64,000 bases of DNA from Haloarchaeobius amylolyticus (GCF_026616195.1 NZ_JANHDH010000004.1:124001-188000), one strand, 5' to 3'. Shown: positions 7,493 through 27,844, counted from the first letter of the stretch. Notes: a model not told the origin generated them from the sequence alone. Numbers and translations are program-made.

Positions 7493-8835
7493 GTTACATT
7501 CCATTCGTAGGTTTTCTAGCCGCTTCGACAGTCTGCGAGGTTCTGCCAGCCGTACGTCGTCGGCGTGTTTCAATCCCGTTGTAGGTTTTCTAGCCGCTTC
7601 GACGTGGTTCGCTCACTGGACGCGCTGGATGACGCGGCGTTTCAATCCCGTTGTAAGTTTTCTAGCCGCTTCGACGCGATCCTCGGACTGTCTGTCTGGC
7701 ACTACTCGAGTTTCAATCCCGTTGTAGGTTTTCTAGCCGCTTCGACGAGGGCGTCGAGCAGGGCCGCGAGCAGGAGGTCGTGTTTCAATCCCGTTGTAGG
7801 TTTTCTAGCCGCTTCGACCGCTTCTCTACTCCGCACTCCGAACAGGTCCAGACGTTTCAATCCCGTTGTAGGTTTTCTAGCCGCTTCGACCGGGTTGGCT
7901 GTTCTCCGTTTCTTCTTGGCCGACCCGTTTCAATCCCGTTGTAGGTTTTCTAGCCGCTTCGACGGTGGTGAGGAAGCAGAACCCAGGAAGCGGCCGAAGT
8001 TTCAATCCCGTTGTAGGTTTTCTAGCCGCTTCGACTTCGACCCCGGCGGGTCCCGGTCTTCTATCGCAGAGTTTCAATCCCGTTGTAGGTTTTCTAGCCG
8101 CTTCGACACGGCGACGGCAGCGACGAGACCGGCATCTTCCAGTTGTTTCAATCCCGTTGTAGGTTTTCTAGCCGCTTCGACGATCTCGGCGCTGCACGTC
8201 CGCACTGGCGACGGGTTTCAATCCCGTTGTAGGTTTTCTAGCCGCTTCGACGAGACGACTTTACCCGCTGGTACAAGTACGACCTGTTTCAATCCCGTTG
8301 TAGGTTTTCTAGCCGCTTCGACGTTTGCGCGCCGGCGGGCGCCGACGGCGACGTGTACTGTTTCAATCCCGTTGTAGGTTTTCTAGCCGCTTCGACTACA
8401 TTTCCGGCGAACTCCTCCAAACTGTTGTGCAAGGTTTCAATCCCGTTGTAGGTTTTCTAGCCGCTTCGACGAGGTCCCGTCGTTACTATCGACTGTGGCC
8501 GACGAGTTTCAATCCCGTTGTAGGTTTTCTAGCCGCTTCGACCGTATTTCTTTGATTTTGTCATCCTCCATAAGGCTCGTTTCAATCCCGTTGTAGGTTT
8601 TCTAGCCGCTTCGACAGGCCGAGCGCCTCGACGACCCCGCGGTCCTCCTCCGGTTTCAATCCCGTTGTAGGTTTTCTAGCCGCTTCGACCCAGCAACACC
8701 GACTTTAGACGCCTGTTCATGCTCCGTTTCAATCCCGTTGTAGGTTTTCTAGCCGCTTCGACGACACGGTAGATGACGGCGAACGCGAAAAACATCTTGT
8801 TTCAATCCCGTTGTAGGTTTTCTAGCCGCTTCGAC
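7493..8835 (-). CRISPR. CRISPR array 1, subtype I-D, 19 repeats and 18 spacers
   Basis: Nineteen 37-nt repeats; on the plus strand they begin GTTTCAATCCCGTTGTAGG and end TAGCCGCTTCGAC. Spacers are 33-37 nt. The crRNA strand is the minus strand, giving the usual ATTGAAAC 3' end of the repeat. The repeat at 7493-7529 is degenerate (GTTACATTCCATTCG), marking the leader-distal, oldest end, and the one at 7639-7675 has a single G-to-A change. The leader is at 8836-8943, directly downstream of cas2 on the same strand, so some read-through from the cas operon is possible. Confidence 0.97.
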
Positions 8836-8953: not shown

Positions 8954-9232
8954 TCAGATGACGTTGGATTGGTTGTCAGGCGGGGTGTTTCCGAGGTCAG
9001 TGATATCGTCTTGGCATGAGCTACAAATTCGGTATATTCTGATTCGGTCACCGTCTGTTGTTTCGATGTGATTTTCAAGTTCGTCCCTGAGTTTGATGCG
9101 TTCAGTCTTCGAGACCTCAGCTTCGAAAACACTGAACTGCCGCCATGCACCATATCGTTGGAGGGTTTGGTACACTCGTCTTCGGTTTGAGTCGTCATGT
9201 ATATCATAGGTAATTACTATTCGAATCGTCAT
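8954..9232 (-). CDS. cas2: Cas2 adaptation endonuclease-fold protein
   Basis: A 92-residue protein with the ferredoxin-like Cas2 signature: TIRIVITYDIHDDSNRRRVY with the conserved Asp after beta-1, then YGAWRQFSVFEAEVS. It forms the central dimer of the Cas1-Cas2 integrase. Its ATG overlaps the cas1 stop codon by four bases (ATGA). It is the last gene of the cas operon, and the leader of array 1 begins about 10 bp beyond its stop. Confidence 0.95.
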   Translation of the reverse strand: MTIRIVITYDIHDDSNRRRVYQTLQRYGAWRQFSVFEAEVSKTERIKLRDELENHIETTDGDRIRIYRICSSCQDDITDLGNTPPDNQSNVI

Positions 9233-10224
9233 CGATTGACCTCCAGTGCGTGGTACTCGTCCAGTTCGCCCGTGATTCGCTTCCTAAGGAGAATTGCCTG
9301 TTGGCGGATAGCTTTCCGCCGAGACACCTCGTATTTGAAATACGGGTGTGTCAACGTTTCAGTCATGTAGTTGTCGAATTTCTCTAGATATAGTTGGAAG
9401 GTCTCGTCCTTGAGGTGGTTTTCCTGAGTAAAGTCGTCGTGAGTGATGGTACTTCGGTTTACTAACCTGGTCACGAACGTGTCACAGAACAATGGACGGA
9501 ACTCCTCCTGAAGGTCTAACGCAAGCGACGGGCGTCCGTGTCGGTCTGCATGCAACACGCCGAGGAATGGGTCGAGGTTATACTGACGTAGTGCGCTCAA
9601 GACCTCGTTTTTCATCATCACGTAGGTCAACGAGAGCAAACTGTTGATGTGGTCTTCTGGTGGTCGCTTCGTCCGTTTCTCGAACGTCCAACCGCTTGCC
9701 AGTGTATCGTCAAGCAAGGTGAAATATCGCTCTGCGGCCTCACCTTCGACGCCTCGCAGGTCGTCTTTACTGTCAGTCCGGTGCACTTTATTGCCGAGGT
9801 CTTTCAGGAGGTCAGTTCCAGTCACCCCTTTTCGACTTAGAAGCGTCCGAGCGTTTCGAATTTTTGCGCTAATCATCGCTTGAGAGATACTGAGTTCAGC
9901 GGCTTCATCGAGATCGTATTGGGCTCGTCGAACGGTTGCGATGGTGTTTTTCTCTGGGACGAAACTTCCCCTATACTGGCCATTCTGAGTGAAGTAATTG
10001 AGGACGATACCATGTTCATTGGCGCGACGGACGAATGGTGTCGAGAAATTGACCCCACCGAACACGTTCAGCGTGTCGATTTTCTCTGTCGGAAACGTCG
10101 CGATCTCTCCACCGTCACCATCAACGTCGTAGACGACGATACGACCACCATCGGTCTGAACCTGTGTCCCTTGCTTCGTGACATAGACGACCGAATCGTC
10201 GAACATGGCTTCAGCTGCTTTCAT
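9229..10224 (-). CDS. cas1: Cas1 integrase
   Basis: A 331-residue protein with an N-terminal beta domain (MFDDSVVYVTKQGTQVQ) and a C-terminal helical catalytic domain. Metal ligands are visible as the Glu in GVEGEAAERYF, the His in GVLHADRHGRP and the Asp/Glu in LALDLQEEFRPL. It inserts new spacers at the leader end together with Cas2. ATG 10224 (MKAAEAMF) overlaps the cas4 stop by four bases; the longer frame to 10311 is the cas4 overlap. Confidence 0.95.
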   Translation of the reverse strand: MKAAEAMFDDSVVYVTKQGTQVQTDGGRIVVYDVDGDGGEIATFPTEKIDTLNVFGGVNFSTPFVRRANEHGIVLNYFTQNGQYRGSFVPEKNTIATVRRAQYDLDEAAELSISQAMISAKIRNARTLLSRKGVTGTDLLKDLGNKVHRTDSKDDLRGVEGEAAERYFTLLDDTLASGWTFEKRTKRPPEDHINSLLSLTYVMMKNEVLSALRQYNLDPFLGVLHADRHGRPSLALDLQEEFRPLFCDTFVTRLVNRSTITHDDFTQENHLKDETFQLYLEKFDNYMTETLTHPYFKYEVSRRKAIRQQAILLRKRITGELDEYHALEVNR

Positions 10225-10814
10225 AATTCGTCCTCCCAACCGGTCCCTCTGACCTTCTGTGGCTCTAGCTTGATTGTCTCCGCTGGCATACAGTACTCGC
10301 GTGTCGAACACGCCTCACATTTCGCGGGGTTATCTGTGAATGAAGGGACAGTGTCGACAGACATGGATTGCATCGCCTCTACGATGTCACGGACACTGTC
10401 TCGGTGATCGTCAGTAATCGGGATGTGCATACGCTGGTCGGTTTCATACAGGTAAATCGCGCCTTCATCGACTTGCTGATCGATGTGGTCTTCAAGCAGC
10501 ATGCAGTACCCGGCGAGCTGTATTTCGTCGCTCTTGTAGTACTCCCCACTTGCGGCTCGCTTTCTTTCAATTGGAACTGGCGTACTTGTATCTCGTTCTA
10601 GGACATCGATTTTCCCTTTTAGACCGAGGGTTTCGGACTCTAGATATAGCTCGTTGAGCCACCCTCCACGGGTCGATTGAGCGTCGTGGAGGGAAGTTCC
10701 CTCAACTCGCTCATAATTCTGGCCTTGTGTGTCGAAAAAGTGGAGATACCAGTACCGACGAGGGCAATATACGTACTGATTCAGGTCAGAGACGTTCACT
10801 AAGTTGTCCATCAT
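10221..10814 (-). CDS. cas4: Cas4 Fe-S exonuclease
   Basis: A 197-residue protein with one Cys near the N-terminus (YCPRRYWYLHF, Cys17) and three near the C-terminus (KCEACSTREYC, Cys166, 169, 175), the four ligands of the Cas4 iron-sulfur cluster. The RecB-type nuclease core is seen in LKGKIDVLE and VPIERKRA. Cas4 trims prespacers and selects PAM-proximal ends. It overlaps both cas3 and cas1 by four bases, so translation is coupled. Confidence 0.93.
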   Translation of the reverse strand: MMDNLVNVSDLNQYVYCPRRYWYLHFFDTQGQNYERVEGTSLHDAQSTRGGWLNELYLESETLGLKGKIDVLERDTSTPVPIERKRAASGEYYKSDEIQLAGYCMLLEDHIDQQVDEGAIYLYETDQRMHIPITDDHRDSVRDIVEAMQSMSVDTVPSFTDNPAKCEACSTREYCMPAETIKLEPQKVRGTGWEDEL

Positions 10815-12700
10815 TGTGAACGCTCCTCGATTTCAAGCTCTGGTGGGGCATTCGAATGAGTCGTGACTGTGATGTCGTAGTTTGCAGTCGTGATTCTTTC
10901 GGGAACCACCGCGTCAGTGATGCGGATAATACGGAAGAACCGATGAAGGAGATTGGTATCGAGGGGGAATGTATCGTCTAGTTCAAGTCTGTCGATTTCT
11001 CGATGGACTTTTGTCTGGAGGAGGTCTTCAATCTCGGTCGTCGGCTGGTCGTAGCGCGTTGGTTCAGTTTCAAATTCTGGGAGACGAGCGGTGACGACCG
11101 ATTGCGTATCGTCACGAGACTCGAGTACGAGACAGCCCTCATCGTCGACTTCTGCAATGGCGTAGTTTCGAAGAGTCGATGTGAGGTCATAGGTAGTGAG
11201 TCCAAGACGGTCACCACGAGGATACCGGATCTCAGCAGGGAGTGATCGACCTCGGAGTCCACAGAACATCTTGAAACATTCGCGGGTGAACTTGAGAATC
11301 TTCGCTGCATCGCTGTTCTGTGTATACGTCGGGGCGAACCCACCCAAGTTGTCGATGGCAGTGTCGGCTTCGTCGATGAGCCGTCGCCAACGGCCGAAGT
11401 GCTCTATGTTCTCAGCGAAGTCAGCATGGAGTTCTTGGTTGTACCACGTGGCACTTTCGTCGCGTACCGCAATAGCGTAGGCGGCACGGAACCCGACGAG
11501 ATCTGCGAGTTGGTCAAGGTACATCTCGCTGTCGTCCAGTCCCTCGTATATTTGTTGTTCGAAGGTCTGGAACGAGACATCCTCTCCCCACGGTCCCTGT
11601 CCGAGACCATACACGTGAACCGTGGCGGGTGCTTGTCGACCAGCACGACCGAACCGTTGCAGGAAGGCGTTGGCCTCCCTGGGTTTCTCCATGAATAGTG
11701 TTCGGATGTCATAGTCGAGACCGACCTCACCTTTACTCGTCGTATTCAGAATGAAAAACGACTTGTCGGCAAGGGCGCTTACGTCATCATTCGTGTCGAA
11801 CCCGTTGTCTTTCGCCGTGTGTTCGAATATATTAGGATACTCGTCAGCAAGGAACGTATGGAATTGGTTGCTGTCTCTGACGCTATTGAACACGAGGACA
11901 ACCTGTGGCTCAGACAATGTAGCTGCCTTTGAAATTGCTTGTTCGAGCTGATTTGCAACCGCGTGCTTTGTATCGTCATCGGTGAGAATGCGTCTGGCCT
12001 CGTGGCGTTCAACGGTGACCGGGTATCGGAATTGATCGCCAGTCATGGCGTATTCGGCAGCAATCTTTTCCACGTCGATTCCGATTCGGTTATCGATGAA
12101 GTCGATGAACGTCTGGTTTGGAGTTGCAGAGGCTAGCAAAATTTTCGGGTCCGGCAACCGTTCCGAGATTATCTTAATCTGAAGGAGGAGACCGCTGGCT
12201 GCGAGCGGGCCGTAGAAGTGAAACTCGTCGTAGACAATCGCGTCGAATCGATTGAAGAAGTCCATCGCATCGCTCCCGGAGTACATATCCTGGATAATGG
12301 CCTGGAGAATGTCCGGGTTCGTGACGATAACATCGTGATCAGCTTCATATCGATCTACAAACTGAAGCAGATTCGCGGTTCGGTCGTGTGCCCGGCCCTC
12401 AAGCGTGTTACCATTCAGAATAGCGACATCGATGCCAGCAGCATCGAAGCGGTCGTGTTGTTGTCTGAGCAAGGCGTTCGTGGGATAGACCAGCAGTGTG
12501 ATGTCCCGCGTCTCGATGAGTTCATGAAACGTGACGGTCTTTCCCGCTCCGGTCGGTGCGCGAACCGCCGCCACAGGTGCGTCTCCGTGATGCACCCACT
12601 CAACGACTCGGTTCTGGAACGCACGAGCTTCCTCAAAGCCTTGTTCTTTAAGCCCGTACTTGGGGGGTTCAGTTTGAAGGAACGCCTCGCCGACTTGCAT
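10811..12700 (-). CDS. cas3: Cas3 helicase of subtype I-D (no HD domain)
   Basis: A 629-residue SF2 helicase with Walker A APTGAGKT (48-55), DEFH box (158-161), SAT motif (191-193) and a C-terminal helicase core with RFGRAGR. No HD nuclease domain is present at either end, and no separate cas3'' gene exists. This is the subtype I-D arrangement, in which the HD nuclease is carried by Cas10d. Its start overlaps the csc1 stop by one base (TGATG). Confidence 0.93.
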   Translation of the reverse strand: MQVGEAFLQTEPPKYGLKEQGFEEARAFQNRVVEWVHHGDAPVAAVRAPTGAGKTVTFHELIETRDITLLVYPTNALLRQQHDRFDAAGIDVAILNGNTLEGRAHDRTANLLQFVDRYEADHDVIVTNPDILQAIIQDMYSGSDAMDFFNRFDAIVYDEFHFYGPLAASGLLLQIKIISERLPDPKILLASATPNQTFIDFIDNRIGIDVEKIAAEYAMTGDQFRYPVTVERHEARRILTDDDTKHAVANQLEQAISKAATLSEPQVVLVFNSVRDSNQFHTFLADEYPNIFEHTAKDNGFDTNDDVSALADKSFFILNTTSKGEVGLDYDIRTLFMEKPREANAFLQRFGRAGRQAPATVHVYGLGQGPWGEDVSFQTFEQQIYEGLDDSEMYLDQLADLVGFRAAYAIAVRDESATWYNQELHADFAENIEHFGRWRRLIDEADTAIDNLGGFAPTYTQNSDAAKILKFTRECFKMFCGLRGRSLPAEIRYPRGDRLGLTTYDLTSTLRNYAIAEVDDEGCLVLESRDDTQSVVTARLPEFETEPTRYDQPTTEIEDLLQTKVHREIDRLELDDTFPLDTNLLHRFFRIIRITDAVVPERITTANYDITVTTHSNAPPELEIEERSQ

Positions 12701-13407
12701 CAGAGGACCTCCGGAAGGACCCTGTCTCGGACGAACACCGGGTCAGCTCCGACGAAGTGTTGGAGACGCGGATCATTTCCACGTTTGAATCGGTTGCTGT
12801 TAGTCATCAACCCTGTCAGTACATCGTCAGAGAGGTCGTAGACCTCGGCGAGCAGGTACTTGTTCAATACAAGTGTGTCCAAATCAGATTCGACAGATCG
12901 GAACTCACCAGTCTGCTTGATTCCCATCCTGAAGAACGGCCGGGAAGGAAGATCAGTGTCGTCGTGGGCCCAGATTGTGAACTCGAACGTCGAGCCCGGG
13001 GTGAGTCCCAGATAATTTCGAATCGTCTGGTACGCTGCGCCCGAGTCTTCGAGGATGGCTGGCATGGAATCGGTATTGGCGATTCGCCTGGCAAGATCTC
13101 GGTCGTTCGTGGTGAAATGACGCTCGGACCTGAAGTCCGTACTCCTGAACGTCCGTTCGTCAGCGTCGACAGCGACCGGCCGCATGTCGGTCACGAAAAA
13201 CGGTGCGTCCACGAGGTGTGAGTAGTCCGCGGTCGTCGCGTCAGACCCACGTTCAGCATACCGTTTCTCAAGCCCGAAGTACCGATAGCCGAGGGCATGC
13301 ATCAACGCGGTCGCCGACAGCGTCGGCTGTGTTCTGACCGACCGCCCTTCCGTACTCGAATAGAAGAGCGGTGCGTACAGCGTTGCCTCGTACGTCTGTT
13401 CAATCAT
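12700..13407 (-). CDS. csc1: Csc1 (Cas5 of subtype I-D)
   Basis: A 235-residue RAMP-type protein starting MIEQTYEATLYAPLFYSS. An early histidine/tyrosine segment (HALGYRYFGLEKRY) and the N-terminal beta strand pattern fit Csc1. The assignment is supported by position between csc2 and cas3 in a canonical I-D order. It caps the 5' handle side of the crRNA in Cascade. It overlaps csc2 by eight bases. Confidence 0.88.
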   Translation of the reverse strand: MIEQTYEATLYAPLFYSSTEGRSVRTQPTLSATALMHALGYRYFGLEKRYAERGSDATTADYSHLVDAPFFVTDMRPVAVDADERTFRSTDFRSERHFTTNDRDLARRIANTDSMPAILEDSGAAYQTIRNYLGLTPGSTFEFTIWAHDDTDLPSRPFFRMGIKQTGEFRSVESDLDTLVLNKYLLAEVYDLSDDVLTGLMTNSNRFKRGNDPRLQHFVGADPVFVRDRVLPEVL

Positions 13408-14338
13408 CGCCGAACAGATCCTGTGCCTCCTTGGTCAGGTTCGTGAACTCTTCTCGAAGCACCTCGTCTGCGTCTTCGGCCTCACGGCTCGCAACCGCTT
13501 TCAGCCGTTCGTACCACTCGGGGAAGGGTTCTGCGTTGTCGAACTCGCCGTAGACATCCCAGTCTGTACGTTGAACATCCGTGATGTACTCGGCGACTGA
13601 GGTCACGAGTTCCTCGCCCGGATCGTGGTATTCTAGGAGGAGTTCACCCGTCGAGAGCGAGGTGTCATGGTTTCCGAGGATGACACCGAGGACTTCGTTG
13701 CGGATGTTCCGTCCGGTCCGGGTCTCACGCGCACCGTACTTGCCCGTGTTCAAGATGTTATGAAGGACGTACAACAACATCTCTCCAGTCGCAGCTTCGA
13801 GCGTGATGAAGTGCACGAGGTCGTTCCCGGGTTGGACTTTGACGAAGTCGAACAGGGCCTCGGACTGATTTCCTTCGTCGTCTTTCATCGTCCCGGACTC
13901 GTAGACGGCGTTCCGAGTTTCTTTGTTCATCAGATCGTACTCGTTCGTGGTGTAGGTGTAGCCCTCGATGACACGTGATTTTATCGCGAAGTCTTGGTCG
14001 CCAGTTCCAGCGAGGCCGTACGTCAGAGTACCGACATTCAGTGAGCCATCGAGGTCGGTTGGCTCGTTGTAGGCGTATTCTTCATCAACGAACTCGTCGT
14101 CAAGTCCACGCAGCAGGTCCAGGCCCGTGAGGCGTTCCTTGCTGGTGAACTTCTCACCGTTGACCTGTGCGTAGAGGCGGTCGCCGAATTCTTGTGTCTC
14201 TGCACGGTCGTGGTTCGAGTTCCTGAACAGCGTCGGCTCTGTCACATCTCGTCGGACGACCAGAGTAACCGAAGGCTTCCGCTTCCGGTAGATTTCGATC
14301 GATTCAATCAGTCCTTTGTCGGGGTATTCCAGTGTCAT
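13400..14338 (-). CDS. csc2: Csc2 (Cas7 backbone subunit of subtype I-D)
   Basis: A 312-residue protein with the Csc2 signature LNVGTLTYGLAGTGDQ and KSRVIEGYTYTTNEYD, typical of the I-D Cas7 subunit that lines the crRNA. A second conserved region is TGKYGARETRTGRNIRNEV. It starts directly after the cas10d stop and overlaps csc1 by eight bases. Confidence 0.93.
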   Translation of the reverse strand: MTLEYPDKGLIESIEIYRKRKPSVTLVVRRDVTEPTLFRNSNHDRAETQEFGDRLYAQVNGEKFTSKERLTGLDLLRGLDDEFVDEEYAYNEPTDLDGSLNVGTLTYGLAGTGDQDFAIKSRVIEGYTYTTNEYDLMNKETRNAVYESGTMKDDEGNQSEALFDFVKVQPGNDLVHFITLEAATGEMLLYVLHNILNTGKYGARETRTGRNIRNEVLGVILGNHDTSLSTGELLLEYHDPGEELVTSVAEYITDVQRTDWDVYGEFDNAEPFPEWYERLKAVASREAEDADEVLREEFTNLTKEAQDLFGDD

Positions 14339-16750
14339 TTATGAGTCGGTGAGTGTTTGATCGAATGCGTAGTAGTACGAGTTTACGAGCGCGTCTTCCC
14401 AGTCAGATAGCTTCTTCAAGTTGTACAGGTCGTTCTCGATGAGGTACGTCCGAGTTGCTTCAACGAACGCCTGTGCTTGCTCGGGAGTGACCCTGCCAGC
14501 GTAGTCTTCCCGTTGTGCAGTGGCGTAGACCTGACTCTCAACGTAGTCGACGAGTTGCTCGTCTTCCATCTGTTGATTCATTCCGCTGAGAAACGCGTCG
14601 AGTGCCTCGCGGAAGATTTTCGTCTTCTTGTACTTGCTGTCGAATTGTTTGCCGAACAGGTCGACACCTCGCTCGGCGACAGTTCGCATCTCCATGAGTG
14701 CTTCCTGGTGATAGGTTTCGAAATACGACTGCACGACATCGAGCTGCGTCGCGTAGTCGTGGTTGACAACGGCGAAATTCGCGATGCTGTGGAACGTATC
14801 TTGGTCGAGCTGCAGGTACGGATTTGTCATTTTGGCTTCCGCACCAACCATGCTCATGATTTTGAACAACTGGAGTGCACGCCGAAGATGAGACTGTGAA
14901 TCCTCGCCATCGACGAACGACGGCTTCGGCCCGAATCGTTCGGCCACGTCCAGTCCGAGGAGTTCCTGCGGTCGGGTGGCCTCCTCGTCAGCGAAGACCG
15001 CATCCGCGCCGTCGAAGCGCGTGAACGGTCGTCCGATGACCACCTTCATCCCGGATTCTCGGGCTGCCGCCATCACCTGCCGGACCACCTGCATCCGGTG
15101 ATTCTCGTCCATGACGTACACCGGCTGCAAGTAGTACTGCGGTTTGATGAGGCTGACCTGAACGTCGCGGTCGTCCAGTTCATCGCTGTTACCTTGTACG
15201 ATGTTTCCGGTCCGGCGTCGACGAAGACGGATGTCTCCGAGGAACTCGTCAAAGTAAAAGTACGCAACCTCAACGTTATTATTCGTGCTGACATCGCTCT
15301 GGTCGCAGATATCTGCGAACAAGGCGTACTCGAGGTTGCACACCTCGCAGATAGATTTATACTTCGCGTGCGGCGGGACGCGCCGAGAGTACTCTTGAGT
15401 TCTGTAGACGGCGCTCAGGCCCTTTTGATACTTCGTCTCGGTGGGTGCGCCGCAGAGGAAGCACATCTCGTCTTTCCCGGGCAAATCTTCGACAGTGTGA
15501 CTGCCGAAGAATCGGTCTACGACTGCGCTGATAGCATCACTTTCAGGCGTAAGGTCGGCTTCGAGTTCTGGACGGGTTTTTTCACGAAGGTCTTCGAGGA
15601 ACTCGTGATGAGACTCTGCGTTGTTGACGAGGTAGGCGATGAAGTGGAGTTTTACTTTCTGTGGGCCCTGCTCATCTCGAATACGATCGTACTCTTCTTG
15701 GACTGCGTCATCGTCGAACTCGGACCGACCGTCGACGTAAACGGCTTTCGCAAGGACAGGGAAGTATTCGTGGAACGAATCCGGGATATGCTCGAACGCT
15801 TCTACACCCGCTGAACCACGCGAGAGCAATTTTTCGAACGCCTTTGCAATAGTATCTTCTTTCTCCTCGAACGGGAGTTCGATTTCCGCGAGGATGTCGT
15901 AGTCGAACGAATTCCAGTTGAGCTTGCAGCTAAAGTCGAACGAGTTACTGATTTGCTTTGGCAGAGTGTCTGCCACGGCTCCCTCGAGTTGCTCTCGGTC
16001 GATGGAGTCACCGAGGTAGACGATGCTCTCTTGGTCGCTTCCGATGACCAGGCCCGGGTGCTCCATCCCTCGCTCACCGGCGATTGCGGCTTTCGTCGTG
16101 CCGAGCAGAAGGTCGTTGAGGACAGGTTGCTCGACGGCTGTAAACTCTACGAGGTGGACATCATCAGCGTCGAGTTTTCGCTTGAGTTGGTCGTAGACGC
16201 CGTGTACACCATCGCGGAGAGCTATCGACGCGGCTTGGTCTCCGATGCGCGTGTATCGTTCCAGCCCTCTGAACTCGCTCGACGTGCCGCGAGTCTCGGT
16301 GCTGTCTTCCGAAATCTCCGTGTTCTGCACGAGATAGAGAAGATCTTCCCGATAGCCTTCTCCGAGAAATTCCTCGATTCCGAAATCGTCGCCCGACTCG
16401 TCGTCGAGATTCGGTTCGAAGTAGTACTCGAAAGCCTCGTGTGTGTTCCCGTCTGTATCGACGCCATAGGCTTCACGGATGTACTTGTTCGTGTCGTGCA
16501 GCGCAAGTGCGGCCGCGAGCACGCGGATGTCCTCTTCGTAGTCGTCGACAGACTCGTCGTCTCCGACAGCTGTATAGACAAACGTGTTCACGCCGACTGC
16601 AACCGCGTTCAGGATATGTGCTGCCAGGGATGAGTTCGCGGTGCTGTCGACCTTGGCGTCATACTCACCAGCCGCGTCGAGGACGTTCGAATACAATCCA
16701 GAGTCCTCTACCAGCCACCCATGGACACGCTGGACGCCAGAGCGAGCCAT
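14339..16750 (-). CDS. cas10d: Cas10d (Csc3), HD-nuclease-bearing large subunit
   Basis: An 803-residue protein. The N-terminal HD domain shows His45 (AAHILNA) and His85-Asp86 (LALHDTNKY). A zinc-binding centre is formed by Cys430, Cys433, Cys468 and Cys471 (CFLC, CEVC). The C-terminal third is helical. In subtype I-D, Cas10d recognises the PAM and supplies the nuclease that Cas3 lacks. In characterised I-D systems a small subunit, Cas11d, is translated from an internal start near the 3' end. Candidate internal Met codons here are residues 632, 634 and 641 (14857, 14851, 14830), leaving 163-172 residues; no clear Shine-Dalgarno precedes them. Confidence 0.93.
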   Translation of the reverse strand: MARSGVQRVHGWLVEDSGLYSNVLDAAGEYDAKVDSTANSSLAAHILNAVAVGVNTFVYTAVGDDESVDDYEEDIRVLAAALALHDTNKYIREAYGVDTDGNTHEAFEYYFEPNLDDESGDDFGIEEFLGEGYREDLLYLVQNTEISEDSTETRGTSSEFRGLERYTRIGDQAASIALRDGVHGVYDQLKRKLDADDVHLVEFTAVEQPVLNDLLLGTTKAAIAGERGMEHPGLVIGSDQESIVYLGDSIDREQLEGAVADTLPKQISNSFDFSCKLNWNSFDYDILAEIELPFEEKEDTIAKAFEKLLSRGSAGVEAFEHIPDSFHEYFPVLAKAVYVDGRSEFDDDAVQEEYDRIRDEQGPQKVKLHFIAYLVNNAESHHEFLEDLREKTRPELEADLTPESDAISAVVDRFFGSHTVEDLPGKDEMCFLCGAPTETKYQKGLSAVYRTQEYSRRVPPHAKYKSICEVCNLEYALFADICDQSDVSTNNNVEVAYFYFDEFLGDIRLRRRRTGNIVQGNSDELDDRDVQVSLIKPQYYLQPVYVMDENHRMQVVRQVMAAARESGMKVVIGRPFTRFDGADAVFADEEATRPQELLGLDVAERFGPKPSFVDGEDSQSHLRRALQLFKIMSMVGAEAKMTNPYLQLDQDTFHSIANFAVVNHDYATQLDVVQSYFETYHQEALMEMRTVAERGVDLFGKQFDSKYKKTKIFREALDAFLSGMNQQMEDEQLVDYVESQVYATAQREDYAGRVTPEQAQAFVEATRTYLIENDLYNLKKLSDWEDALVNSYYYAFDQTLTDS

Positions 16751-17622
16751 TACTGAATTGCCTCCACAGTGACATCCCCACAGCCACGTGCAACGGCTGA
16801 CCCAACCCCGGAGTACTCAGCAAAGAGGGAGACAGCGGTGACGGCGTTCTGGAGGCTTTCAGAAGCGTCCTTGAACGCATAGGTACAGGTACCGGTGAAT
16901 CCTTGTCGGAAGATCGGGCGCGGGTTATCATCGTCGTCGCTGACCCGGTTTACCAGAACGCTGTGGGTATCGTAGGAGCTGGCGTCGGGTTTTTCGATGA
17001 CTGAGCGAGCGAGTGCGTCGCGGTCGAATTCAAGGTTGAGGTCATCGGGAGCCGTTCGGTTCCACTTTCCGAGTAAACTGCGGAACACAGAGACTCTGTG
17101 AGGGAACATGGTTGTCACAGACCCGGCCTCCTCAATGCATGTCGGGCTCTGAAAATCGAAGGTAAGCCGGGGTTCGTCGAGTGAGCCAGCTTCTTCAAGC
17201 AATTCTGTGTGGTTTGTATTGGAGTTCTCGAACTCGCGGACGTGAAGAGATCCGTTAGTGAGAGAAATCTCGTCATTTTCGAGCACTAAGCCACGAACCA
17301 GAGTTTGGAAAACCCTGGCGTCGCTTGGGTCGGTAACCCCAATCGTGGCTGTGTAGCGGTTGTTCGGGAGGATTGTCTTGTGGTGGGGCCGGTCGCTGTC
17401 GGCGAAGACACCACGAAGGGCGCTGACGTGGAGCGATCCGAGGTCGGAATCGTGGACCTGTTGGCTTACTGTTTCGTCCATAGCGTCGATACTGGAAAGG
17501 ACTGCGCTGTAGAGGCTGTATCCGTCTGAGTTCGGGACAGAGAATCGTGAGTCGGGTGCAAGTTTGATCTGCACCCGGCGGAGGGTAGTGGATTCGTGAC
17601 CAGACTCACTCGATGTCGCCAT
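16750..17622 (-). CDS. cas6: Cas6 crRNA-processing endoribonuclease
   Basis: A 290-residue RAMP protein starting MATSSESGHESTTLRRVQIK. The C-terminal glycine-rich loop SGVGSAVARGCGDVTVE is the Cas6 hallmark, and an N-terminal histidine-containing region (PHHKTILPNNRYTA) may supply catalytic residues. It is the first gene of the cas operon, and its stop overlaps the cas10d ATG by one base. A TATA-like GTTTTACA at 17647-17654 lies about 25-30 bp upstream of the ATG, suggesting a leaderless mRNA. Confidence 0.93.
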   Translation of the reverse strand: MATSSESGHESTTLRRVQIKLAPDSRFSVPNSDGYSLYSAVLSSIDAMDETVSQQVHDSDLGSLHVSALRGVFADSDRPHHKTILPNNRYTATIGVTDPSDARVFQTLVRGLVLENDEISLTNGSLHVREFENSNTNHTELLEEAGSLDEPRLTFDFQSPTCIEEAGSVTTMFPHRVSVFRSLLGKWNRTAPDDLNLEFDRDALARSVIEKPDASSYDTHSVLVNRVSDDDDNPRPIFRQGFTGTCTYAFKDASESLQNAVTAVSLFAEYSGVGSAVARGCGDVTVEAIQ

Positions 17623-18524: not shown

Positions 18525-20085
18525 GTCGCGGTAGGGAGAAAACCCAGAACGGGATTGAAACACTTCAACCCGTGGGGGGAGAACTACGCTCGGCGCGGTC
18601 GCGGTAGGGAGAAAACCCAGAACGGGATTGAAACCCCGCAGTGCGGTTGCATGAAGTTCGCCGAACAGCGTCGCGGTAGGGAGAAAACCCAGAACGGGAT
18701 TGAAACGCCATCATCACGGCGGCCGGGGTGCTGTTCCAGTTCGTCGCGGTAGGGAGAAAACCCAGAACGGGATTGAAACACCGCGACCATCGTGACCACC
18801 GCGGCGAGGAACGCGGCGTCGCAGTAGGGAGAAAACCCAGAACGGGATTGAAACTGGTCCTCGCCGCGGGCGGTGATGGTCATCTTTGCGTCGCAGTAGG
18901 GAGAAAACCCAGAACGGGATTGAAACCCATCGGCGTCAGTGAGCCAGTAGCGTTGGACGAGGTCGCAGTAGGGAGAAAACCCAGAACGGGATTGAAACCC
19001 TTCGTCGAGGTCGACGCGCTCCCAGCGCAGCCCGGTCGCAGTAGGGAGAAAACCCAGAACGGGATTGAAACGCTTGCCGGGCGCTTACATTAACGTTGGT
19101 GACGACGTCGCAGTAGGGAGAAAACCCAGAACGGGATTGAAACTTGACCTGTTCGCCGAGTTTGTCCTGCTGCCAGCCGTTGTCGCAGTAGGGAGAAAAC
19201 CCAGAACGGGATTGAAACCAATCCGGCCACGCGAACGCGATTCGGAACTTGACTGTCGCAGTAGGGAGAAAACCCAGAACGGGATTGAAACACGATGAGT
19301 CGGTATCGCTGGTCTTCGTGAAGCTGTCGCAGTAGGGAGAAAACCCAGAACGGGATTGAAACATGGCGTCACTCATGACGTTCAGCCCGATCTCGACGTC
19401 GCAGTAGGGAGAAAACCCAGAACGGGATTGAAACCTGGCTGCTGGCATCGCTGGCGTCGTCGCGCTGTGGTCGCAGTAGGGAGAAAACCCAGAACGGGAT
19501 TGAAACACCTCAACGTCGCGGGGGCCGGGCGTGTCGACGGTCGCAGTAGGGAGAAAACCCAGAACGGGATTGAAACTCCTCGCCCTCGCCGCCGATGGCG
19601 ATGAACGCGTCGTCGCAGTAGGGAGAAAACCCAGAACGGGATTGAAACTCGCCGTCGAGCACGTCGAGGTAGGTCCACTCGATGTCGCAGTAGGGAGAAA
19701 ACCCAGAACGGGATTGAAACAGTGCGTCGGTCTCGGACGGGCAGGGGAACAGTGTGGTCGCAGTAGGGAGAAAACCCAGAACGGGATTGAAACACGCTCC
19801 TCGTCGGGGGCGTCGTCGGGCTCGTCGGCGTCGCAGTAGGGAGAAAACCCAGAACGGGATTGAAACAAGGCCGACGATAGATTGCTCGAGTATTTGGATT
19901 CGTCGCAGTAGGGAGAAAACCCAGAACGGGATTGAAACGTCGCCGATGACTGACATCGACGGCAGCCCGCGCCCGTCGCAGTAGGGAGAAAACCCAGAAC
20001 GGGATTGAAACGTTCGCCCGGTTCCGTCGAGGGCATCGGCGACGTCGGGTCGCAGTAGGGAGAAAACCCAGAACGGGATTGAAAC
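18525..20085 (+). CRISPR. CRISPR array 2, subtype I-D, 22 repeats and 21 spacers
   Basis: Twenty-two 37-nt repeats beginning GTCGC(A/G)GTAGGGAG and ending AGAACGGGATTGAAAC on the plus strand, with spacers of 33-38 nt. In crRNA orientation the repeat matches the array 1 repeat at 30 of 37 positions, including both ends. The four leader-proximal repeats (18525, 18598, 18670, 18743) have G at position 6 and the other eighteen have A. This is expected if the repeat next to the leader is the template for new ones. The last repeat shows no decay. Confidence 0.97.
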
Positions 20086-20406
20086 GCTATCCACGGATAC
20101 GCTGTGATGTAGTTCCAGCTATGCCAGTAAGTACAATATTCTGACCCTGAGAGCAGGTCTGAAATGGTAGAATTCTCCACCTGACCCATCCAACAATACC
20201 GAGTACGACAGCGACTACTTCCTCTACTTCGATATCACGGCTGGAAGTATTTCAGCCGACGCCATTTTGGCAAATCGGAACAGAAAAGCTAGTTAATCGC
20301 AAGACATCATCCCTCGATGCCAACCAACGAGATAGCAACCGTAATTTCGGGATAGGTTATCGACGATGTATACGTGATAGTCCTCGATTCCACACAGCAT
20401 TTTTTC
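20086..20406. other. Intergenic stretch between array 2 and tfb
   Basis: No complete gene is visible. An open plus-strand stretch (about 20188-20296) reads NNTEYDSDYFLYFDI and ends at a TAG. It could be a tail remnant of a lost gene, but no family is recognised. Homology to the tfb remnant upstream of array 1 begins at 20385. Confidence 0.4.
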
Positions 20407-23305: not shown

Positions 23306-23757
23306 CCGACGACTCCCCGCTTCGTGTGGACGACAAATCGTACCTCGAGAGCAGTCCCACTTCGACCATGCAGGTAGTTCTGTTTCCGCGCTGAATCACG
23401 ACCCGAACTGGCGGCAGCATCGACATTTATGCCAGAATAGTATCACTAGAAATCCCCCGGACTCCATCAGTGCGTTTTCGACGGAAATTCGAGCCAGTAT
23501 ATAAGGGGATTCGATGGGGCACCGGTTTGAGTCTCTTGGGCAAGTTAAAGGTGTGCTGCACATTCGGAATAACCCTGTTACGTGTGGCGATTTGCTGTGC
23601 AGCACATTTGGTGGTGTGCAGCAAATCGTGCAGCACACCAATTTCGGGACTGTGGGCGACTACTTTCTCAGGGGGTCGCCACAATACTACCAGATATTTT
23701 TCACAACTAGGTTGGGTTGCGAAGAACGTTGACGGCAGGGGTACTGAAGGTATCAGA
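23306..23757. other. Non-coding region with a strong TATA box
   Basis: No gene with haloarchaeal composition is present; open frames here merely translate DNA repeats. A consensus-like TATATAAGG lies at 23498-23506 on the plus strand, followed by the TGTGCAGCACA cluster described separately. The region lies just beyond the 3' end of the minus-strand mobilisation operon, so a small RNA or a replication/control site is possible. Confidence 0.45.
23552..23637. repeat. Four TGTGCAGCACA-type sites
   Basis: An 11-bp element occurs as TGTGCTGCACA (23552, inverted), TGTGCAGCACA (23596), TGTGCAGCAAA (23615) and CGTGCAGCACA (23627). The first two are exact reverse complements. The cluster starts about 45 bp downstream of a strong TATA box. 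The arrangement fits a regulator's operator array or replication iterons; no rep gene is adjacent. Confidence 0.6.
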
Positions 23758-26748
23758 TTACTCGGTGACCTTCCCTTCTCGAGGTTCGTAAATCGGAATG
23801 TGCGCCCCGCGGTCACGGAGGGATTTCACTGCGTTCCAGAAGTCATCGCCCTTCGGGTAGTCGCCAGGGTGGTTGATGATTCGCTCCTCGAGTGCGACCA
23901 CCTGTATCGCGTCCAGACCGTGCATTCCCTTCCGATAGACCCACCCGTCGTGGAGTTGCGCGAGGCGAGTCCCGCTCTCGGACCGTTCCCAAGACGGGTC
24001 GAGAGACTTCGACCCATCAGCTCGTTCCTCAGTTACTGTCGACCGGAGCCGGATATCGCTGGGACGGACGTGCTGAATCGCGTCAAGGACGTCCTGGATG
24101 TCGTCGGTACTGGTGAGTGATTCGATCGACTCACGGTCTTTAATTGGCTCATGGACTATCTGATCCGGCGCCTGATCCGTGACCGTCGCGAACTCGTCGA
24201 CGAGTTCGTCGATGAAGTCCTGGCACTCTCTCGTCTGTGCAGGTGTCTCGGCGAGATGCTCGCCGGTCATCGCGATGAACCGGGCCGAGTCGTAGACCTC
24301 GATTTCTGCGTTGGGGAAACCAGAATCTGTCGGCAGTGATGCGTCGACGGATTTTACGCCCTCAGGAAGTTCCCCCTGACAGAGGATATGCACGCCGGAC
24401 CCAGAGGTGGAGATATCGGTATAGCTCTCGGCGCAGTCGATGTGCGTTTGGACGCTTGAGTGAATCGCGCCAGTCTCGGGGTCCCGGACCGAGTCGTAGT
24501 CGACGAGCACGTATTGCTCAGTAGGGAATTCGCTACGGTTCCTGATGGTGAACGCCATCTTGTGACCACTGTGTTTCCCTGCCGCGCGGTGAGCAGTCCC
24601 GAAGGTCGTCCAACAGTCAGGATCTTGGGCACTCACATACTTATCGGGCCACTCGCTCACCCAGGGGGCTCGCGGGATTTTCCGTCCATCGTCGGTCTCC
24701 TTCCAGGTGAGCCACTGTGGATGGTCCTGCATATCAGCAGGGTAGACTGCAGATTCGACCGCGAAACTGGCTCTCTCTTCCTCACGTTCCCTCACCTCCT
24801 CTTGTTCAGTAGACGAGGGCCCACCTATCGAGTCTGTCGGGGGTTGCGTTGTGGGACCGTCGTCAACAAACCGTTCGAGTTCCCCACCAACCTCGTCGGG
24901 AGCTGGGAGCGGGAGGGGCTCGTCGATATCGCTCGTCGACGAGGGCGTTTCTCCGGGGTCTTCGACAAACCGAGTGTCATCCCCACCAGTGCAAGCATTG
25001 TCTTGCCCATCAGGTGAGGACAGAGCGGGAGTCGGCGAGTGGTCGGGTGGCGAGGGGTCTGCCACGAGGCGATGACGAATCGCGGAGAGTTGCTCGATTC
25101 GACCCAGCCACCAGTCCTCCCTGCTCTTGACGATACAGTCCCCAGTTCCGAACGCCTTGAGGGTTCCAGAGACGACCGGATACCTGTCGTTCTCGCTGAC
25201 AGTCCGCGAGCGGGACGCGGCGCTCCCCGACGTACCAGCGCGGCTGTTGCGTCGGACAGTCGTCGACCTGACGCGCTGCCGCTGGTGGCCGACCTCTGAC
25301 TGAATGTACTCCGTCGTCTTGGGCTCGCCGCCGCTGAAGTAGACTCCCTGGGGGCAGTTCCCGAGGATGCCGTCGCTTCGCTTCCCATACTGGGCTTCGA
25401 GCTGGCCCACCGTCTGGATCCCGAGCAAAGCTCTGGCCTGTGCCGACCGCCCACGGGCCGTCAGGACGTGTAACTGCGACAGCGGTGGAAGCTGGTCGAC
25501 CTCGTCGAGGATGAAGTTCACTGGATTGTCAGACTCCATCGCGAACCGTATCGCCCAGTCCAGGAGCAGCCGGAACATCGGGCCGACCGATTCCATCTCC
25601 GTCGCCGCAGAGTCAACGACCAGTACACGACCGCCAGGATTCTCGACGTACTCGCGTATCGAGAACGCACCGGCAGTGGCGAAGTCACCGACGAACACCT
25701 GACTGGCGTTCTCGTGGATGGTCTGGTAGACGTTCACCGCCGACTTTCCGGTCTCCGAAACCAGATGTGCCGCGCTCGGTGCAAGGTCGCTGTACTGCTG
25801 GAGTCGCTCCTGCATCACTTCTCGGTCGAGTCGGAGGAACTCGACGAGGTCCTCGTGTGTGGGCGTGTCGTGGTTCTCTGCTGCCGGAGGGCCACGGTGG
25901 ACGTAGCGAAGGGCTGCTTCGAACACCTGCTTCGCCGGTCTGTGGAACGGGTCTGATCCCTGTGGCTCACCGAAAACCGCTCCCGCGAGTTCTCTGAAAT
26001 CGCGCTCCTTCTCAACGTCTGCGAACAGATTCCAGATACCATCAGCGTCTTCCACGGCGACTCTGAGTACCTCGAAGCCGAGGTCCTCATAGAACGTCTG
26101 GAAGTCATCACCGAAGTCGTGTGCGATGACGGCCGTCTCGGCCTCGTAGGGGAACTGGTAGGCGAGAAGCTCGAGTGCGGATGTCTTCCCGCTCCCCGTC
26201 TCGCCAATCGCAAGGGTCGACACATCCGGGTCAAGCCTCGGCAGTGCGGAGGCCCCTTCGCTGCCGGTCTTCACTGAAGCCATGGGAGCGATTAATTCGT
26301 CCTCGCTCTGGTGGTAAGTGATACTTGAGAGTCCGAAGATTGGCGACTTGTAGCGCAGCACCTGCAGCACCACGCCAGCACCACTCCCGAGTACGAGTCC
26401 CCACAGCACCCATCTATCGGCGACCTCAAGGAAGGGGATGCCAACGCCAGCGATCGGTCCCACGGTTTCTATCCAGAAGAGAACCGCGAGTCCGAGTACG
26501 TGTGGTGCCACAGCAAGCGCGAGTGGCGAATAGACTCCCGTGAGTAGCCCGTCCCAAGACACGAAGAGTGTGAGGACGCCGAACAGCCCGTAGACGTACC
26601 GCCAGCGCCACAGGCGAGTCGAGAGTGGCGCATCCCTGTTGAGCGACAGCCAAGGGAACATCACGGCGATGAGGACCTTTCCAGCCAGCGTGAGAATCTC
26701 ATCGAAGAAGCCAGCCGGCGGACCTGTCTTCCCACCTGTACCAGTCAT
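23758..26748 (-). CDS. VirD4/TraD-like coupling ATPase fused to a primase-polymerase-like domain
   Basis: A 996-residue protein. Four hydrophobic segments in residues 24-130 predict a membrane anchor. A motor domain follows with Walker A GETGSGKT (182-189), FILDEVDQLP as Walker B, and QTVGQLEAQYGKR as in type IV coupling proteins. After a low-complexity acidic linker, residues about 670-860 resemble the NrS-1-type prim-pol fold: HPQWLTWKETDDGRKIPRAP, VLVDYD (D-x-D metal site), SGSGVHILCQG (catalytic His) and ARFIAMTGEHL. Coupling proteins bring relaxosome DNA to the transfer channel. The fused domain could prime the transferred strand (inference). Its ATG overlaps the relaxase stop by four bases. 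Confidence 0.8.
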   Translation of the reverse strand: MTGTGGKTGPPAGFFDEILTLAGKVLIAVMFPWLSLNRDAPLSTRLWRWRYVYGLFGVLTLFVSWDGLLTGVYSPLALAVAPHVLGLAVLFWIETVGPIAGVGIPFLEVADRWVLWGLVLGSGAGVVLQVLRYKSPIFGLSSITYHQSEDELIAPMASVKTGSEGASALPRLDPDVSTLAIGETGSGKTSALELLAYQFPYEAETAVIAHDFGDDFQTFYEDLGFEVLRVAVEDADGIWNLFADVEKERDFRELAGAVFGEPQGSDPFHRPAKQVFEAALRYVHRGPPAAENHDTPTHEDLVEFLRLDREVMQERLQQYSDLAPSAAHLVSETGKSAVNVYQTIHENASQVFVGDFATAGAFSIREYVENPGGRVLVVDSAATEMESVGPMFRLLLDWAIRFAMESDNPVNFILDEVDQLPPLSQLHVLTARGRSAQARALLGIQTVGQLEAQYGKRSDGILGNCPQGVYFSGGEPKTTEYIQSEVGHQRQRVRSTTVRRNSRAGTSGSAASRSRTVSENDRYPVVSGTLKAFGTGDCIVKSREDWWLGRIEQLSAIRHRLVADPSPPDHSPTPALSSPDGQDNACTGGDDTRFVEDPGETPSSTSDIDEPLPLPAPDEVGGELERFVDDGPTTQPPTDSIGGPSSTEQEEVREREEERASFAVESAVYPADMQDHPQWLTWKETDDGRKIPRAPWVSEWPDKYVSAQDPDCWTTFGTAHRAAGKHSGHKMAFTIRNRSEFPTEQYVLVDYDSVRDPETGAIHSSVQTHIDCAESYTDISTSGSGVHILCQGELPEGVKSVDASLPTDSGFPNAEIEVYDSARFIAMTGEHLAETPAQTRECQDFIDELVDEFATVTDQAPDQIVHEPIKDRESIESLTSTDDIQDVLDAIQHVRPSDIRLRSTVTEERADGSKSLDPSWERSESGTRLAQLHDGWVYRKGMHGLDAIQVVALEERIINHPGDYPKGDDFWNAVKSLRDRGAHIPIYEPREGKVTE

Positions 26749-27392
26749 CGCTCAGCTCCCCGTTCTGGGGTAGCCGAGCGGGCTGACTCAGCTGTCCTCG
26801 ATTCCTCCTGTTTCGACGCCTCATCTTCTGCTTCGGAGCGGAGTGCAGTAGGGTCGTACTGCAACGCCTTCTCGGTCTGCTCTTTTCTAGGTCGTTCGAT
26901 AGTTTGCTTCCTCTCAGCGTTCAGGTCACGCTTCGCCGACTGTTCCTCGAGTCGCTGTGCGACCCGTTGTGGTTCTTTGAACACCTCTCTGGCGAGACTC
27001 TCGAAGGACTCGAGGTCAGTGGTATCCATGTAGAGCTGCTCTTTGTGCCCGGTGACCGCCACGTGCGCGTGAGGCGTCTCCTTGCTGTCGTGAACTGCGT
27101 AGACGTACTCCGTAGCCTTCCTGTCTGCTCGCCACTCCCGCATGAGTGACCGAACGTTCCGGTCGACTTCGCGGGCGCCGTAGGCAGCTTTCGGGTCTGG
27201 TGCGACAATGAAGTGGCGTTCCATGTCGTATCGTTCTGACACCCCGATGAACCGTTCGCGCGCCCGGGCGTCGAGTTCTCGACCGGTGTGATCCCTCACC
27301 GGGACTTTCTTCCCGTTGTCCCGGCGGATGTACGCGAGGAGGTCGGCCGCACCACCGCGCTGGAAATCGGTCTTCGTAATCAGAAGTACCAC
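26745..27392 (-). CDS. HUH relaxase-like mobilisation protein
   Basis: A 215-residue protein with GTG start (MVLLITKTDF). The metal-binding motif YVYAVHDSKETPHAHVAVTGH contains the HxH pair (His108, His110) plus His101, as in MobP/MobA-type HUH endonucleases. Tyr21 (LLAYIRRDNGKK) is a candidate nucleophile. The C-terminal 70 residues are charged and probably flexible. It overlaps the RHH gene by 13 bases and the coupling-protein gene by four, so the three form one transcription unit. It is short for a relaxase and has no helicase domain. Confidence 0.75.
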   Translation of the reverse strand: MVLLITKTDFQRGGAADLLAYIRRDNGKKVPVRDHTGRELDARARERFIGVSERYDMERHFIVAPDPKAAYGAREVDRNVRSLMREWRADRKATEYVYAVHDSKETPHAHVAVTGHKEQLYMDTTDLESFESLAREVFKEPQRVAQRLEEQSAKRDLNAERKQTIERPRKEQTEKALQYDPTALRSEAEDEASKQEESRTAESARSATPERGAER

Positions 27393-27844
27393 CCGTCATC
27401 ATCGTCCGTCGACTGCTCGTCCATGTTTTGACGGCTGGAGGGCCGCTCATCGGCTAGGTCCAAGTCGCTGCCGAGTTGATTGGCCTGGTCCCGAACCCGT
27501 CGCCGGCCAGCCTGCATCGCGTTCTGGCGTGCCACTTCCCCGTGATTTCCCTTCACAAGTTCCCATGCAGCGACTGAATAGACGCCTGTCTGCAGAATCG
27601 CCTCCTCAAGCCCGTTCGTTGCGTCAGTCACCTCGTCGGTTGCGTGTGCAACGAGTTCTTCTATTCGACGCTCGACGGCGGCCTCGTGACCAATTTCGGT
27701 CATGAGGTCGTTCTGGACGTGCGCCTCGAGAACCTCGGCGACGTAACCTGACTTCGACTTATTGGCCTCATTTGCCCGTGCCACAACCTCTTGATACAGA
27801 TCCGTGTCGAGGTATACATCGATCTGGTTATCTCTCCGAGGCAT
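27380..27844 (-). CDS. Ribbon-helix-helix relaxosome accessory protein (MobC-like)
   Basis: A 154-residue protein. The N-terminus (NQIDVYLDTDLYQEVVARAN then KSGYVAEVLEAHV) is a ribbon-helix-helix DNA-binding fold; the rest is helical with an acidic tail. Position directly upstream of a relaxase-like gene suggests an oriT-binding accessory factor that also represses its own promoter. A palindromic AT-rich tract (CTTTAAATATAGTTTAAG, 27844-27861) covers the start and could be its operator. Confidence 0.7.
   Translation of the reverse strand: MPRRDNQIDVYLDTDLYQEVVARANEANKSKSGYVAEVLEAHVQNDLMTEIGHEAAVERRIEELVAHATDEVTDATNGLEEAILQTGVYSVAAWELVKGNHGEVARQNAMQAGRRRVRDQANQLGSDLDLADERPSSRQNMDEQSTDDDDGWYF

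Follow-up and report, generated by a model that had tools for sequence, protein, structure and literature searches.

Conjugative plasmids of archaea are described in three studies (PMC9905601, PMC6563490, PMC3158045) as having relaxases rarely or not at all, and these studies do not decide whether the DNA is moved as a single or a double strand. According to the part of the survey by Guglielmini et al. that deals with archaea (PMC3158045), its sole conjugative archaeal plasmid is pNG500 of H. marismortui; judging from the name, and from both being H. marismortui plasmids, the surveyed system seems to be the one in our locus L051. A precedent for joining a transfer protein to a primase is found in MobA-like relaxases fused to RepB' primases, the prototype of RepB' being that of RSF1010, as described in a passage of PMC5862659. 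We analysed a stretch of 64,000 nucleotides from Haloarchaeobius amylolyticus (GCF_026616195.1, NZ_JANHDH010000004.1:124001-188000; hereafter the window), in which three minus-strand genes at 23758-27844 encode a ribbon-helix-helix (RHH) protein, a putative relaxase of the HUH type and a protein that by its sequence comprises a whole type IV coupling protein (T4CP) and, behind it, an NrS-1-type primase-polymerase (PrimPol) domain. Like the MobA-RepB' fusions, this protein combines a transfer protein with an archaeo-eukaryotic primase (AEP), but the transfer protein is the coupling ATPase here and the relaxase there. That the T4CP-PrimPol fusion is intact can be regarded as practically certain. 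The operon type itself is already known from Haloarcula plasmids such as pNG500, while the fusion is new.

The fusion gene (23758-26748, minus strand, as are all parts listed below) encodes 996 amino acids (aa). Its N-terminal portion has the features by which coupling proteins of the VirD4/TrwB/TraD group are recognised, i.e. an ATPase domain, a predicted N-terminal transmembrane region and an overlapping relaxase gene. A hydropathy scan places about four membrane helices in the hydrophobic region at residues 12-131 (26356-26715), and the ATPase core extends over residues 178-561 (25066-26217) according to PF10412, PF12696 and the family alignment, with the Walker A motif GETGSGKT at residues 182-189 and the Walker B region DEVDQL at 415-420. 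PF10412 (TrwB_AAD_bind) matches residues 178-512 (E=7.5e-32, 111 bits vs a cut-off of 20.5), and there are further matches to TraG-D_C (E=1.6e-15) and to TrwB in the PDB (E=3.2e-8). Behind the core lies an acidic linker rich in proline, serine and threonine (residues 562-660, 24769-25065; 26 D/E and 5 K/R among 99 residues), in which the peptide motif RFV[E/D]D recurs, encoded by a 31-bp imperfect direct repeat (24859-24889 and 24958-24988). The nearest T4CPs, from loci L029 (52% identity at best) and L049, both branch beside the window sequence and stop exactly at the T4CP core. Haloarcula T4CPs end in an acidic tail of 160-310 residues closing with -FM, and tails of this kind were seen at loci L004, L005, L006, L008-L010, L022, L043, L044 and others. 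The conserved -FM tail is possibly a relaxosome-docking tail that is missing from the fusion. The idea that Haloarcula tails conceal a diverged PrimPol was rejected; these acidic tails have no Pfam match.

The sequence-only reading of this DNA had placed a domain with D-x-D and catalytic-histidine motifs of the NrS-1 group behind the ATPase, and sequence, profile and fold matches all agree with it. The NrS-1-type AEP/PrimPol domain occupies residues 664-876 (24121-24759, with the D-x-D codons at 24493-24501). NrS-1 primase in the PDB matches residues 673-876 by sequence (E=3.8e-11), and a profile built from 18 related modules matches NrS-1 with E=6e-27. The structural match to AEP primases proposed as a test of that reading was found as well, since an AlphaFold2 model (mean pLDDT, the per-residue model confidence, of 85) retrieved NrS-1 structures as top Foldseek matches (6jop, E=1.9e-14, probability 1.00), followed in rank by the pRN1 PrimPol. 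The fusion protein keeps the D-x-D motif (D750, D752), the SGxGxH histidine and the EVYDxxR motif. Across the 18-sequence alignment D96, D98, S128, G129, G131, H133 and E163 are invariant and R169 nearly so (module numbering), and these residues map to the D-x-D, SPSGxGxH and EVYxxxR motifs of the NrS-1 alignment; a replacement of the D-x-D and histidine residues throughout the homologues, which had been named as a ground for refutation, was not seen. The NrS-1 phage primase-polymerase (6a9w, 6jop) thus has the AEP fold and the catalytic motifs in common with the fused PrimPol, but its partner is a helicase and it carries a helix bundle, whereas the partner here is a coupling ATPase and no helix bundle is recognisable.

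The module closes with a conserved C-terminal domain (residues 877-996, 23761-24120) found in haloarchaeal plasmid proteins of a probable replication function. Including this domain, the PrimPol module is 64% identical to the N-terminus of a 1062-residue protein of Halorientalis litorea (8.9-kb plasmid unnamed4), and many similar large plasmid proteins (~1060 aa), which are probably the replication proteins of small haloarchaeal plasmids, also carry a related module at their N-terminus. In these proteins the module precedes a large remainder, whereas in the window it forms the C-terminal part of a membrane protein. The module also occurs in other protein architectures; at L031 (793-3489, minus strand) and L032 (805-3441, minus strand), from two haloarchaea, it has helix-hairpin-helix repeats on its N-terminal and TFIIB repeats on its C-terminal side, an odd arrangement for one protein. 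Given that the nearest T4CPs end at the core and that the module is found in various architectures, the fusion probably arose when a movable PrimPol module was attached to a coupling protein that had no tail.

Among the collections searched, the fusion is unique. In about 510 distinct Halobacteria genomes (391 across the class, plus the families of the host genome and of genomes G367 and G194) only the window's own gene covers both halves; T4CP-seeded matches extend to residue 643 (679 in one fragment), PrimPol-seeded ones start no earlier than residue 583, and the two always belong to separate proteins. Likewise, no second fusion was present in INPHARED phage records, GTDB contigs, IMG/VR or all open reading frames (ORFs) of the fetched loci, no counted PLSDB record covered 80% of the fusion query, and no T4CP-primase fusion was found in the titles, abstracts and selected passages of the open-access literature. 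The claim that the fusion is unusual therefore holds across genome, plasmid, phage and viral collections.

The proposed operon of RHH protein, HUH relaxase-like protein and VirD4-like ATPase stands with its ORFs, coordinates and overlaps unchanged. The RHH gene (27380-27844, minus strand, 154 aa) overlaps the relaxase gene (26745-27392, minus strand, 215 aa) by 13 bp, and the latter overlaps the fusion gene by 4 bp, all three lying head to tail. The RHH protein, a putative relaxosome accessory factor, has a weak hidden Markov model match to NikA-like proteins (E=0.046), and the assignment is backed by the gene position and by similarity to a Haloarcula-type RHH protein at locus L004 (BLAST E=1.4e-12). 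The 215-aa protein is taken as a MobA-type HUH relaxase from its sequence and predicted structure. It possesses the three-histidine metal motif and the catalytic tyrosine of HUH relaxases; Y21, H101 and H108 are invariant in the family alignment and H110 nearly so, in the context YAVHxxxxxPHAH. PF03432 is matched (E<=0.01) by 20 of the 21 aligned family members, with a best E of 6.4e-11. A search of PDB sequences with the relaxase profile gave no match, while the predicted structure has the MobA minimal relaxase of R1162 as its best PDB match (2ns6, E=1.3e-3, probability 1.00).

The gene order is the same as in operons of the Haloarcula pNG500/pHMA133 type, and across the aligned relatives T4CP cores are 40-51% and relaxases 26-43% identical. 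In Haloarcula plasmids the RHH, relaxase and T4CP genes follow pilin and VirB4-like genes, and the T4CP, located downstream of VirB4, has an acidic tail; here, in contrast, the core is followed by a PrimPol, and the plasmid gave no VirB4 match. In G138, a plasmid of Haloarcula's family, VirB4 is closely preceded by RHH and T4CP genes. The same three genes form a 10.7-kb unit in Haladaptatus halobius, in a record with no annotated VirB4; this record (L049, NZ_CP085343.1) is a 21.5-kb plasmid annotated like a tandem duplication of the unit, with protein accessions doubled.

More general than the single fusion is the observation that transfer-type ATPases are repeatedly paired with NrS-1-type PrimPols. 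The host genome contains two VirB4 clusters outside the host plasmid contig, at 62-65 kb of contig C5 and 441-444 kb of contig C3, and in both a PrimPol of 412-415 aa is encoded at most a few hundred bases downstream of an ATPase of 1430-1440 aa. The ATPase has weak HerA/TraG/TrwB matches and a Pox_D5-type C-terminal domain (C5 copy examined), and the PrimPol has a strong match to the NrS-1 helix-bundle domain PF22763 (E=1.3e-31). The ATPases and PrimPols of the two loci (C5:57510-70823 and C3:435778-449109 of the host genome, G000; L068-L071) are 90-91% identical between the clusters, which also hold pilin-like, VirB6-like and split VirB4 genes; no relaxase was recognised in them by eye. Across 145 genomes of the class Halobacteria with 73 close PrimPol copies, a HerA/TraG-like ATPase gene lies directly upstream, on the same strand and at near-constant spacing, in 50 of the 73 copies and in 40 of 50 genomes. 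A simple random-placement estimate makes such pairing by chance essentially impossible, although the genomes are related and the copies not independent. The clusters inspected contain VirB4, and two inspected paired clusters in PLSDB, from Natrinema pellirubrum pNATPE02 and Halobacterium sp. GN101, are typed MPF_T; annotated beside the PrimPol are a pilin and type IV secretory ATPases in the former and a primase-like DNA-binding protein in the latter. These adjacent genes resemble the window fusion in combining a transfer-type ATPase with an NrS-1-type PrimPol, but they are separate genes, the PrimPol has PF22763, and the ATPase, which has a D5-like domain at its C-terminus, belongs to a family other than that of the fused T4CP. 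Fused and separate PrimPols are related in their AEP domains (hhalign E=1e-34, 33% identity) and have no C-terminal domain in common, hence the two kinds of pairing most likely arose separately. The recurrent pairing is an argument from context rather than proof, and the best evidence linking PrimPols to DNA transfer in haloarchaea.

The host plasmid contig (C4) measures 253,758 bp, and its 126-bp end overlap probably indicates a circular plasmid of ~253.6 kb. Two VirB4 queries detected no VirB4 on it, and in the whole genome matches were confined to C3 and C5. Thus, the module looks mobilisable rather than self-transmissible, with a channel needed from elsewhere, e.g. from C3 or C5, and what had been described as a conjugative module would not be one by itself. 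On this plasmid the likeliest role of the fused PrimPol is the priming of second-strand synthesis on plasmid single-stranded DNA at the channel. The relaxase, together with the RHH protein, would nick one plasmid strand, and the coupling ATPase would move the single strand at the inner side of a channel that a different plasmid in the cell provides. There, the tethered PrimPol would lay primers on the plasmid single strand, which could become double-stranded without waiting for the host primase. This proposal draws on the domain and fold matches and the invariant catalytic D, D, H and E residues among 18 diverse modules, on the conservation of the operon beside pilin and VirB4 genes in Haloarcula and G138, on the independent pairing of transfer-type ATPase and PrimPol genes, and on the MobA-RepB' precedent. 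Gene order, domain identities, the kept catalytic residues, the lack of a VirB4 match on the plasmid and the recurrent pairing come from sequence or structure comparison; the enzyme activity, the use of single-stranded DNA and the provision of the channel in trans are inferred. Priming might take place in the donor, where it could make a replacement strand or rescue an aborted transfer, or in the cell that receives the DNA. T4CPs normally remain in the donor membrane, as would be expected of one that has about four membrane helices at its N-terminus, so the immediate strand synthesis in the recipient proposed by the sequence-only reading does not follow. A benefit for the recipient could hold if the motor also worked in the receiving cell, as in archaeal import systems. 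As a whole, the operon is best explained as a mobilisation module carried by a circular haloarchaeal megaplasmid, its coupling ATPase bearing a PrimPol where the Haloarcula relatives have an acidic tail, and we put the chances at about even that it works as proposed.

Several points weigh against this mechanism. We know of no T4CP that travels to recipients, and of no observation of transfer of the host plasmid. The fusion is known from a single occurrence, hence its conservation is beyond test, and the relaxase match to PF03432 (E=4.9e-5, 24.1 bits) lies just below the curated cut-off of 24.6. Further, the module gives no Pfam match to the helix-bundle domain PF22763 beside its AEP domain, and in a profile comparison PrimPols of the PF22763 type match it no further than the end of the AEP domain, with no NrS-1 helix bundle recognisable in the C-terminal domain. 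As this bundle matters for priming and not for extension in NrS-1, according to a passage of PMC8718748, its apparent absence lowers the confidence in de novo priming, and primase as opposed to polymerase activity is presumed here.

Recombination might also, by accident, have moved the module from the N-terminus of a replication protein of a small plasmid to the end of a T4CP gene, leaving a fusion, perhaps a decaying one, whose PrimPol has no role in transfer. This main rival agrees with the single occurrence and with the nearest modules (64% identical) being N-termini of ~1060-aa proteins whose remainder is missing here, and the exact end of the closest T4CPs (L029 and L049) at the core would offer a ready docking point. 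However, all 996 codons are open with no stop, every family-invariant residue is kept despite ~35% divergence from the nearest relative (part of which may predate the fusion), GC content at third codon positions is similar in the ATPase and PrimPol parts (0.74 and 0.69), and the ATPase-PrimPol pairing recurs as adjacent genes. We regard an accidental origin as unlikely, although it deserves serious weight.

Two further explanations grant the PrimPol a function of another kind. If the fused motor acted in a cell that imports DNA, the PrimPol would convert single strands on their emergence into the cell. The machines by which archaea import DNA share homology with those of conjugation, as stated in part of PMC9905601, and in the fusion a primase would sit where the channel opens into the cell. 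On the other hand, the operon also encodes the matching relaxase and RHH protein, which points to a donor or export role, an import function is not known for the T4CP family of the fused protein, and the cell would need to contain the protein ahead of the plasmid's arrival. We consider import quite improbable. Alternatively, the PrimPol might serve plasmid replication or damage tolerance, the T4CP merely providing membrane placement, in line with its nearest relatives being large small-plasmid proteins of probable replication function. The host plasmid, however, has two Orc1/Cdc6 genes and a ParA, and owing to the former the PrimPol is probably not the plasmid's initiator and was disfavoured as its replication protein; moreover, the rest of the replication protein is absent and the fusion gene is integral to the transfer operon. 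We consider this explanation very improbable.

A MobA-type relaxase, a true T4CP and a PrimPol in one haloarchaeal operon argue for single-stranded transfer with its own priming step, and D750/D752 and Y21 offer concrete active-site handles in a genetically tractable group. The wider pairing of motors and PrimPols suggests that a priming step may be general in haloarchaea. Only tentatively, and with more doubt than conviction, can this be extended to a built-in second-strand step of haloarchaeal transfer. In this reading a motor would as a rule have its own NrS-1-type PrimPol, encoded by the adjacent gene in the widespread VirB4 clusters and within the same polypeptide in the fusion, and the PrimPol would prime relaxase-generated single-stranded plasmid DNA at the membrane channel.

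A candidate site for the start of transfer lies just 3' of the fusion gene, in a convergent intergenic gap that holds the promoter of neither flanking gene. At 23549-23640 the near-palindrome TGTGCWGCACA occurs four times, as two exact and two one-mismatch copies within 86 bp (0.66 expected in the whole window), and as single-stranded DNA the repeats are predicted to fold into a branched hairpin (-32.2 kcal/mol, z=-5.0), the most stable plus-strand 100-mer position of the window. It could be an origin of transfer (oriT) or a single-strand initiation site. The region has no match beyond chance in its own genome and none in plasmids, and Rfam gave no match near it. In the Haladaptatus unit the strongest single-strand hairpin (L049, 8521-8600) lies ~500 bp upstream of the RHH gene and is likewise a candidate oriT.

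Apart from the transfer genes, the window contains a putative vitamin-uptake transporter gene (Vut_1, PF02592; 28059-28787) that adjoins the operon, and matches to Dpd 7-deazaguanine DNA-modification defence genes at ~40600-63559 (DpdA with E=1.8e-73, DpdC, DpdH and a DpdJ-like gene). By eye, from repeat-encoded ORFs in the ORF list, two CRISPR-like repeat arrays flank a Cas-like gene cluster (7565-8377, 9229-17622 and 18936-20189).

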